64,000 nucleotides of DNA from Spiroplasma sp. BIUS-1 (GTDB taxonomy: Bacteria > Bacillota_I > Bacilli_A > Mycoplasmatales > Mycoplasmataceae). Each line of letters opens with the position of its first letter. Position 1 is the first letter of the stretch. The stretch is from positions 496,001 to 560,000 of the forward strand of contig NZ_CP048386.1 of assembly GCF_010365805.1 (NCBI RefSeq), given 5' to 3'. Shown piece after piece: positions 10,900-49,140 of this stretch. The notes under the pieces were generated by a model that had not been told where the DNA came from, did no database searches, and saw nothing but the letters and a program-made list of their open reading frames with translations. A program made the position numbers and the translations under genes.

Positions 10900-11898
10900 T
10901 TACTCTGTCATTTCCAAAACGACTTTTAAACTAATTTTTAAATTATCATCTTTAAATTCACTTTTATGATAACTATTTCCAGTTTTCTTTACTTGCACAC
11001 TATTGTTATTACCTTCTAGTGTAGAACTAAATAGATGATCAAAATAAATTTTTGTTCCTCCTGAACTTGTAGGTTTTTCTACTAAGCCCATTGTTAGAGT
11101 TGTTGATTTATTATTGTTATTTGAAAGTTCTAATTTTAATAAATCTATTAATAAAATTGAACTTATTAAATTATTTTCTGTTGTTTCAAAATCTAAAGAA
11201 ATGTTTATTATGTTTCTGTATTTTTGTGGATAAAGTCTAAAGTAGTCAATATAATTTTGCATTAATTCATCTAAATTAAAAGTTTGTTTTTTTTCTAAAT
11301 TAAAATCTGCTTTAAAATTTTCACTATTGCTAAAAATCAAAGATTGAAATTGTTTAAAAAATGCAGTGATATAAAAATCACTCATTATTTGAAATGAAGT
11401 AAAGTATTGATTTTCAGGATAACCTAAAAGAGATACATTTTTTCAAAGTGTTCCATCCAAGTAAAAGTCTCCTTCTAAAGAAACTTTATATTGAGAACTT
11501 TGCTTTCCATAAACTTTAAAATCTAATCTTTGAACTACAATCTCTTGAGATTCTAGTAAAGTTTCAAAAAACATTTTTTTAACAAACTCTCCTGAAGAAT
11601 CTATTGCTCCAAACTTTGTTTCTATATGTTCTAATTCAATAAATGAAACATTATTTTGTTTTTTATATTCAAGTCATTCATCAAATTCTCTTTGAAATTG
11701 TTTTGACATATCATAAGTTTTGTTGTCGACTAACTCATTGTTTTCATCAACTTCAAAATGCGAAGTTGTTAAATCCATTGCATAATCATAGTATCTATAT
11801 TCATCTTTATTTTCAACTTGATTATTTACATTAACTATTGCTGATAAGTTTGGTGTTGTCATACCTAAACCAAATAAAAGTTGTAAGATTTTCATCAT
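10900..11898 (-). CDS. Secreted protein with G-rich leader (family member 1)
   Basis: 332 aa. Starts MMKILQLLFGLGMTTPNLSA, a short Sec-type signal without a lipobox cysteine, so it should be released or loosely attached rather than lipid-anchored. The mature part is hydrophilic, rich in N, S, E and Y, and unlike the other family members in sequence. It is grouped with them because it shares the leader: G-rich run, AAAGAAAGG, then ATG. A second ATG follows immediately, so the start may be residue 2. Function unknown; surface exposure is likely. Confidence 0.75.
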
Positions 11899-46797: not shown

Positions 46798-47589
46798 TTA
46801 TCTATATGTAATAAATAAATTAAGTTTAGCACTTCCAAATATACCTTTTGATTTTCCATAATCATTAGGTCTTACATAAATATGAGTAACCATTAATTCG
46901 TTTTCATTTATAGCTTTATCTATATCTTCTTGAGTTAATAATCTATTTGTGTTTGTTTGTTCATCCAAAGTATAAAGTGGACTAAATTCTAAACCAAATA
47001 ATGCAAAGTAAAGTGCAGTATAAGGATCATATGCCTGTATTGTTTTTGAAAGTGATCATTGTGTTAGTTCTGTTAAACTTTCAAGCTCACCTTCATCTTC
47101 TTTTTGAGCTCTTCTAAATAAGCTGATTTCATTAAGTTGGTTTAAATCACCTGGATGATGGTGAATTGTTGAATAATATGTTGCATTTCCAATTAAATTA
47201 TTTGCAATACCTTCTTGACTTGCTTTTATTTTAATTTCTCAAGTTTCTTTATTAGCTCCATTTGCACCCTCAATATCAACATCTTCTATATCTCTATTAT
47301 CCATTACACTTTTAATTGAAATTACTTCAATTCAACTTTCTTCAATAAAGATGTTGTGACTTTTTTGTAGTTCTTTTTTAATTAAAGCAGGTATTAATAA
47401 AGTTTTGTAGCTATCAACTCCAAAGTTGAAATATCCCAAATTCTCTGTGACAGCATAGCCATTTAATACTGACAAATTATAACTTTCTTCTTGTTTTTCT
47501 TTTAATATATTATTTGTGTTAATCACAACAGGTGCAACACTTGTTGTGGTCATTGACAATGATGCGATTAAACTTAGTAATTTTATCAT
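46798..47589 (-). CDS. Secreted protein with duplicated module (family member 3)
   Basis: 263 aa. Signal MIKLLSLIASLSMTTTSVAP. Module copy one: DIEDVDIEGANGANKETWEI then EGIANNLIGNATYYSTIHHH; copy two: LLTQEDIDKAINENELMVTH then YGKSKGIFGSAKLNLFITYR at the C-terminus. The histidine run HHHP sits after the first module. Shares the G-rich leader. Function unknown; extracellular. Confidence 0.82.
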
Positions 47590-47632: not shown

Positions 47633-47740
47633 TAAAAATTTATATTTATAAAGTTATTGGTAATTTGCAAATATTATATATTTCATGTTTAATAAATAAT
47701 TTTGTTTGTTAAATACAAAAAATATTTAGAAAAAAACGCA

Positions 47741-47930
47741 AAAAAAAGCCCAGAGCGAACTCTGGACTAAAACTATTTAAGGGTAAAATAATTTTAAATT
47801 TAACAACTTGAATTGTTCTAGGTACTTATTTGCTTTTATTCAAAGCTCTTACAAGTAGCATTAACTTGTAGTTTCCTGATCCCACCCTTACACCCTTTAT
47901 TTTTTTCTAGAAAAAAATAACTGGAAACTT
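47741..47930 (-). ncRNA. Candidate structured RNA with an orphan G-rich leader motif
   Basis: On the minus strand: a promoter (TTGGTT 47961-47966, 18-base spacer, TATAAA 47937-47942), an AGTTTCC (47923-47929) that can pair with GGAAACT (47870-47876), a perfect 10-base hairpin with CTAG loop (47897-47920), a G-rich run GGGTGTAAGGGTGGG (47881-47895), a further ACAAGT/ACTTGT hairpin, and a strong terminator with a TTCG loop (47748-47767) and T7. Only an 11-residue ORF (47826-47861, MLLVRALNKSK) exists. The G-run echoes the leaders of the six secreted-protein genes. Not a class I recognise. Confidence 0.65.
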
Positions 47931-48217
47931 GGAGATTTTATATTATTGATATCTAATAAAAACCAATACCTTTTTTGGACTAATTCATTTTTATTCCCTG
48001 TTTTTTATTTTTGAAATATTACACTTTCGCAAGCGATTTATGTATTGCTTACAAATGTTATTATCAATTATTAATAAAAATAATCAACAACAATAGTTCA
48101 ACATAAAAATTTTTTTAAAATTCTATAATTATTTTAATTTTATCGATTCAGACCATAAGTGAGCATCTTTGTAATATAAAACAATTGAAATTATTTTATA
48201 TATTTGATATATTTATA

Positions 48218-48441
48218 TTGTAACTAATTTGTTTACAAGTTAGTTACGCGTTGTTGTAAGCCCTCCCAAAGTTTATAATAACTAGGGATATATGAACATT
48301 ATCGATTTCGATAAAACTATTTGTTAGAGAAGTATATATACATCTATCAGTTAATAGTGAATAAGATAATGTAATATTTTCCCTATAACGCAAATTGCAG
48401 ATTAAATTACTTGTTGTCTCTTTCTAAGAGGCAACTTTTTT
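48218..48441 (+). ncRNA. Candidate structured RNA with C-rich loop
   Basis: Plus-strand promoter TTGAAA (48185-48190), 17-base spacer, TATATT (48208-48213). The RNA starts with a GTAACTAA/TTAGTTAC hairpin, then nested long-range stems: GCGTT (48248-48252) with AACGC (48387-48391); TAGGGA (48283-48288) with TCCCTA (48380-48385); ACATTATC (48296-48303) with GATAATGT (48365-48372); ACTATT (48316-48321) with AATAGT (48353-48358). A side hairpin (48250-48259 with 48273-48282) exposes the loop GCCCTCCCAAAGT. It ends in GTTGTCTCTT/AAGAGGCAAC plus T8 (48411-48441). The rod shape recalls 6S RNA, but I cannot assign a family. Confidence 0.7.
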
Positions 48442-48664
48442 TTATCTTTAATTTGGTTAAAATTTTTTAATAAGTGTTTTTTTAAACAATTTTTTTTATT
48501 CCCGAACAGCATCAAATGATTGATTTTCTCTAGTTATTTAAAGACATCTATCTTTGACACCCTTATTGTAATACTTTAAATATTAAATACAAATATTTAA
48601 AAAACCTCTGTCAATTTTAAACTAGTCTCTCACTGCTTTAAAATCAATTTTAAAAAATTTTAAA
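48442..48664. other. Non-coding stretch without recognisable content
   Basis: No ORF, no hairpin of note; strongly AT-rich. Part of the 1.1-kb gap between 47589 and 48685. Confidence 0.6.
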
Positions 48665-48697
48665 AAAAATAGTTAACTTGAAAATTAACTATTTTTT
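48665..48697. terminator. Terminator of the phosphatase gene
   Basis: AAATAGTTAA/TTAACTATTT hairpin; the stop codon lies inside it. Confidence 0.8.
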
Positions 48698-49140
48698 AAA
48701 TTATAAGGATAATTTAACTCCAAAAATTTCTTTCACCCTGGGTTTGGTGAGTGTTCTGGATAGATCTGTCAGAATTTCTTTTGAGCTTCTTGGTAACTAT
48801 TTGCTTTAATAATCTTATTTCTTACTAAATACATAAACACTATACTTGCACTTCTATTTATTCCTCAAATACAGTGAACATAGATTTTTTTATCTTTAAT
48901 ATTGTTTTCAATTTGTTGAATTGCATCCAATATTAAAGATTTGTCCATATCTTCTAGATAAGGATAATCTTCAAAGTTGTACAAAATTCTCTTATTGTTT
49001 TCTTGTACTATTTTGTTTTCACCATCTTTAGGGTTTTGTGTTGTGAATATCTCTTGAGCACAGCTCAAGATCAAATCAGCATCTTCAGGAACTGAATGCA
49101 TGTCTCCTAAATATAAGTTCTTTACGATTTTTTTACTCAT
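48685..49140 (-). CDS. Dual-specificity protein phosphatase
   Basis: 151 aa. The signature HCxxxxxR is present as YVHCIWGINRSAS (Cys90, Arg96); the general-acid aspartate is probably in NFEDYPYLEDMDKS. Small DSP-type phosphatases remove phosphate from Tyr and Ser/Thr residues in the cytoplasm. It is followed in the same direction by no further gene and preceded closely by the 49160-49675 gene, which overlaps its ribosome-binding region. A eukaryote-like phosphatase is uncommon in small Mollicute genomes. Confidence 0.85.

Follow-up and report, generated by a model that had tools for sequence, protein, structure and literature searches.

What kind of gene occupies positions 48218-48441 of the window, by which we mean the whole 64,000-nucleotide stretch of DNA analysed here (Spiroplasma sp. 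BIUS-1, contig NZ_CP048386.1, positions 496,001 to 560,000), and what might its product do? A sequence-only reading had described the locus as a new structured RNA with a readable promoter and terminator, a 5′ hairpin, a side hairpin whose C-rich loop it could not name, and a set of long-range nested stems. We find it to be a genuine intergenic RNA gene of ~225 nt, previously unlisted, and the complementarities described below suggest, with a probability of about 0.8, that this stand-alone gene specifies a trans-acting antisense sRNA that would hide the SDs of two mRNAs, those for a ROK sugar kinase and for PTS IIB.

The layout of the gene is summarised in Table 1. Its promoter, hairpins and terminator had all been read correctly from the letters, and the extended -10 region recurs as TTTG(A/T)TATATT directly 5′ of SL1 in 10 of 10 homologues; transcription, which we infer from these signals, is expected to start at about 48219-48220. 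Both flanking genes are opposite in strand to the RNA gene, which, together with its own conserved promoter and its terminator, argues for a stand-alone gene, an independent transcription unit whose proposed targets lie 326-330 kb away. The 224-nt sequence folds with an energy of -60.7 kcal/mol, against -35.3 +/- 4.2 kcal/mol for dinucleotide shuffles (z = -6.0; 0 of 200 shuffles folded equally well), and the RNA region showed no sign of a conserved protein-coding frame. A second ncRNA-like element of ~390 bases lies nearby, at 47740-48130 of the window on the minus strand and thus divergent to the sRNA gene; it is 83-88% identical in eight relatives and shorter in G005, ends in a terminator (AGTCCAGAGTTCGCTCTGGGCTTTTTTTT), has a fold z of -2.7, no Rfam match and no ORF that could be seen, and is retained in G013 and G019, both of which are without the sRNA.

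Table 1. The RNA gene, its parts and its neighbours, in window positions
Feature	Position	Strand	Description
Promoter	48185-48213	+	-35-like hexamer TTGAAA (48185-48190), 17-nt spacer, extended -10 TGATATATT (48205-48213)
SL1, 5′-terminal hairpin	48220-48247	+	Hairpin in each homologue
SL2, side hairpin	48250-48282	+	Stem GUUGUUGUAAGC/GUUUAUAAUAAC, loop CCUCCCAAA; conserved pairing, invariant loop
Seed	48261-48271	+	CCCUCCCAAAG; antisense to the SDs in the mRNAs for ROK kinase and PTS IIB
SL3, long rod	48284-48384	+	AGGGAUAUAU...AUAUUUUCCCU; 35 nested long-range pairs, 101 bases
Intrinsic terminator	48413-48443	+	GUUGUCUCUUUCUAAGAGGCAAC-U8; hairpin with T-run, from sequence and fold
Dual-specificity phosphatase gene	48685-49140	-	Pfam DSPc; same neighbour in most homologues
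Lipoprotein-like gene	46798-47589	-	Adjacency to the RNA not conserved

The relatives that carry this RNA are not Mesoplasma, as had been presumed, but members of the Apis clade of Spiroplasma. Searches by DNA sequence, covariance model and pattern located the RNA in 10 of the genus's 20 genomes (G000, G001, G002, G003, G004, G005, G008, G009, G015 and G017), among which G002 is taken as S. diminutum, G005 as S. taiwanense and G015 as S. culicicola, with G018 taken as S. apis (PMC5091035). Zero matches were obtained with the covariance model R1 in 40 genomes from 11 other genera of the family, and likewise with the seed-stem pattern in 40 other genera of the order; a pattern match in G018 (ATTGTTGGAAGCCCTTCCAA) was taken as chance, and the RNA-syntenic places of six RNA-less genomes held no match above noise. 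In most genomes the RNA adjoins the phosphatase gene or that gene's neighbours, even despite inserted genes. Rfam 15 yielded no family above its gathering threshold, and the sub-threshold hits to TarA, snoU30 and mcrA (E 3-9) were set aside as chance.

The compensatory changes to which the sequence-only reading had looked for confirmation do exist. Across an alignment of nine homologues (the tenth copy, in G003, was found separately), pairing is kept in 91% of pair cells, both sides have changed in 14 of 47 pairs (26 cells), and the covariation score exceeds those of all 500 shuffles and of every slid version. SL3 has 14 of its 35 pairs changed on both sides, SL1 varies in sequence by lineage with its hairpin persisting in each, and SL2, the best-conserved part of the RNA, has 100% of the cells of its 12 pairs paired in the nine homologues, its changes being one-sided only and every one of them preserving pairing, around a loop (CCUCCCAA) that is invariant in the nine. 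The nested stems had been said to span 144 bases: the 101-base rod proved conserved and the full nesting was not confirmed, since the outermost GCGTT/AACGC pair that such a span seems to require competes with the better-conserved SL2 and is absent from the homologues. A pseudoknot between the loop and AGGGA in the rod was also rejected, AGGGA being lost in G015 and G005 with the loop kept. In five relatives (G001, G002, G004, G009 and G017) the rod ends in CCCTTTTT / CCCUUUUUU and runs directly into the T-run, so that the rod itself is the terminator there; in G000 and G008 the terminator lies further 3′. With ten homologues, compensatory changes, a promoter and terminator of its own and no match in Rfam, the reading as a new structured RNA is well supported.

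The invariance of the SL2 loop raised the suspicion of a base-pairing seed, and its sequence, 5′-GCCCUCCCAA, forms a perfect complement to the SD region (UUGGGAGGG) of the ROK sugar kinase and PTS IIB. These two genes share one lactose/cellobiose-type PTS operon, with the sites 4.3 kb apart, in a cluster comprising, by Pfam, a DcuC-type carrier, an ABC transporter, PTS IIA (lactose/cellobiose), the ROK kinase, an unassigned, lipoprotein-looking protein, PTS EIIC, PTS IIB, MupG and PTS EIIBC. Pattern scans, from which the genome-wide statement derives, place TTGGGAGGG/GCCCTCCCAA in the source genome only at the RNA gene's loop and at the ROK and IIB SDs. Duplex energies, ranked over 71 genes of G000, put ROK and IIB at the top (-21.2 and -19.6 kcal/mol), ahead of an SSB-like gene with UUUGGGAGGA at -16.0 and a median of -6.6 kcal/mol; the 16S anti-SD pairs with the ROK and IIB sites at about -10.7 kcal/mol. 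The SSB-like gene and EIIC (UUGGGGGG) may, from their SDs, be weaker targets, and the SDs of IIA, MupG and the lipoprotein in the operon have no match to the loop. Opening the nine loop bases costs 0.0 kcal/mol, the eleven seed bases 3.3, and the target sites about 3.8-3.9, against about -19 to -20 kcal/mol gained, and the predicted pairing spans the entire SD, 8-9 bases 5′ of the start codon. The RNA presents a conserved, unpaired seed complementary to regions of translation initiation.

Several other sites resemble these. In G004 (L129 ~2213) and G009 (L131 ~1892) a gene for a YitT-family membrane protein has the SD CTTGGGAGGG, which matches the loop in full and makes the gene a possible extra target there; G002 has another PTS IIB-like gene (L228 ~1750, minus strand), with the SD TTTTGGGAGG. 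The motif TTGGGTGGG or a close variant accompanies minus-strand genes at 10900, 39514, 46798, 53107, 54178 and 55129 of the window, lipoprotein-like where read, ~20-40 bases before the start codon; it was rejected as a target, having one U.U mismatch to the loop and lying away from the SD.

Comparison of the sites among relatives connects seed and targets further. The ROK SD reads UUGGGAGGG in 7 of the 10 RNA-bearing genomes (G000, G001, G002, G004, G005, G008 and G009) and is weaker in G017 (UUUGGGAGGA) and G015 (AGGGAGGGU), with no site in G003 or in the RNA-less orthologues of G014 and G018. The IIB SD contains UGGGAGG in the source genome and in the six RNA-bearing relatives closest to it, the site being CUUUGGGAGGG in G000 and G008, whose loop has AAAG, CUUGGGAGGA in G001, G002, G004 and G009, whose loop has AAG, and CUGGGAGGG, one U short, in G017 (loop AAG); G005 lacks the site, and G003 and G015 have a weaker form. 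Thus CCCAAAG in the loop faces CUUUGGG at IIB, and CCCAAG faces CUUGGG, a match that extends to YitT in G004 and G009. The number of A's in the loop tracks that of U's at IIB in 6 of 7 genomes, the exception being G017, and exchanging the loops costs 2-3 kcal/mol at IIB. In G005 and G015 ROK alone matches well, and in G003 neither gene does. G005 also shows signs of a decaying operon (L266 6994-9169), with its PTS EIIC split into several ORFs and its IIB match eroded, in keeping with the reported partial pseudogenisation of sugar pathways in S. taiwanense (PMC5726471). On a DnaK tree, two genomes nested in the RNA-bearing clade (whose internal branching order the tree does not settle), G013 and G019, are without the RNA, including at its syntenic place, where the G019 locus keeps the same neighbours; the ROK gene is absent from their operon, and their IIB SDs (GAAAGGAAUU and GAGAGGAAUU) do not match the loop, though IIB itself is 91-93% identical. 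Genus-wide, UGGGAGGG precedes ATG 13 times in the 10 RNA-bearing genomes and once in the 10 without the RNA, and UGGGAGG SDs lacking the third G are equally frequent in RNA-less genomes.

Could these matches simply be strong SDs inherited by relatives, with the true targets of the RNA elsewhere? The SD core is purine-rich anyway and GGAGG belongs to any good SD, so that some of the complementarity is trivial; the relatives share descent, to which the recurrence of the sites is partly owed, and good matches are missing in G003. Seed and target do change or vanish together, but in few independent events, the joint loss being a single one and the tracking of loop length probably another single one. 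We nevertheless consider this explanation unlikely: the complementarity exceeds the part that pairs with 16S rRNA on both sides (about -20 versus -10.7 kcal/mol), the matches are gone where the RNA is gone, and most other SDs of the operon have none.

It is also quite improbable that the RNA acts through a bound protein or RNA polymerase, as a scaffold or in the manner of 6S RNA, with the SD complementarity incidental. The long rod and the strong fold speak for such a role, a C-rich loop could bind a protein, and a rod-like helix is what the locus has in common with 6S RNA, a likeness on which the sequence-only reading had remarked. That likeness does not extend further: 6S RNA (RF00013) gave no covariance match in the window or the whole genome, the Spiroplasma RNA lacks both closing stem and central bubble, each of its ends folds into a hairpin of its own in the homologues, and in the five relatives noted above its rod is a terminator. 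Moreover, the sequence of the rod varies freely whereas loop and SDs co-vary, and the two genomic TTGGGAGGG sites are both SDs in a single operon. Action mainly on 16S rRNA or tRNA is a very remote prospect. The loop does look like CCUCC at the 3′ end of 16S rRNA, a single mismatch separates it from the complement of the tRNA D-arm UUGGGAGAGC, and nearly all genomes of the genus contain a one-mismatch GCTCTCCCAA, a putative reverse complement of the tRNA D-arm; yet an invariant tRNA target explains neither the loss in G013 and G019 nor the co-variation with SDs, and the mismatch is A.C. That the locus is a riboswitch or attenuator in the 5′ leader of a downstream gene is scarcely credible despite its several stems and 3′ terminator, the next same-strand gene starting ~1.7 kb downstream (50141) beyond two opposite-strand genes, with no same-strand gene conserved directly downstream and the downstream genes not conserved as a same-strand unit.

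As an antisense sRNA, the molecule would be framed, and probably protected, by SL1 at its 5′ end and by the rod and terminator at its 3′ end, with SL2 exposing the C-rich seed 5′-CCCUCCCAA(A)G. The seed would pair with 9-11 consecutive bases over the SD of at least two cistrons, ROK (UUGGGAGGG) and IIB (CUUUGGGAGGG), and so block 30S ribosomes, with less sugar uptake and phosphorylation whenever the RNA is made. Because the pairing covers the whole SD at low opening cost, repression of translation is to be expected, rather than only mRNA destabilisation or activation, and a sugar-related signal may well control the RNA. Hfq (PF17209) was not found in any of 20 Spiroplasma genomes, so the RNA is likely to act without that chaperone, as IsrR does (PMC9410917). 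In an RNA-seq study that grew S. diminutum and S. taiwanense with and without glucose, the only ncRNAs singled out as highly expressed were tmRNA and RNase P, so the RNA may be scarce under those conditions; celA/B were highly expressed in S. diminutum in both (PMC5726471).

Most of what the papers searched offer on Mollicute sRNAs is lists of predictions, with no targets backed by evolution (e.g., PMC5088518). In the present case the structured RNA, the seed and the predicted target sites can all be traced through ten relatives, among them a lineage from which RNA and sites have both been lost. We give even odds to the wider proposal that a dedicated sRNA in a wall-less, reduced bacterium with no detected Hfq gene selectively controls the kinase and IIB cistrons within a polycistronic PTS operon, whose mRNA, with two or three sites, may soak up the RNA; this would be among the first sRNA-target pairs in Mollicutes to be backed by joint evolution. 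The locus thereby offers a small, testable case of regulation by base pairing where no Hfq gene could be detected, and suggests how these insect symbionts might tune their sugar uptake.

Known systems offer partial parallels. RsaE and RoxS are sRNAs of Firmicutes whose C-rich single-stranded motifs pair with G-rich SDs in AT-rich genomes; ChiX of enterobacteria pairs with the transcript of the chitobiose PTS operon, which acts as its decoy; and SgrS, which also encodes a peptide, blocks translation of the mRNA for a sugar PTS transporter. ChiX and the peptide-encoding SgrS are Hfq-dependent and unrelated to the Spiroplasma RNA, the likeness to ChiX residing in the pairing with a PTS operon transcript. 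LhrA of Listeria, again Hfq-dependent and unrelated, hinders ribosome recruitment on chiA mRNA (PMC3078929), the step at which the present RNA would likewise interfere. IsrR acts independently of Hfq, through C-rich single-stranded motifs, partly in hairpin loops, that pair with G-rich SDs (PMC9410917). With IsrR, RsaE/RoxS and FsrA, the C-rich SD-targeting RNAs of Firmicutes, the Spiroplasma RNA shares the pairing of a C-rich motif with a G-rich SD in an AT-rich genome, but it differs from them in having one seed loop only, targets in a sugar operon, no Rfam match, and a layout of 5′ hairpin, seed hairpin and long rod, and would thus represent a new family of an already known kind, the SD-targeting sRNA.
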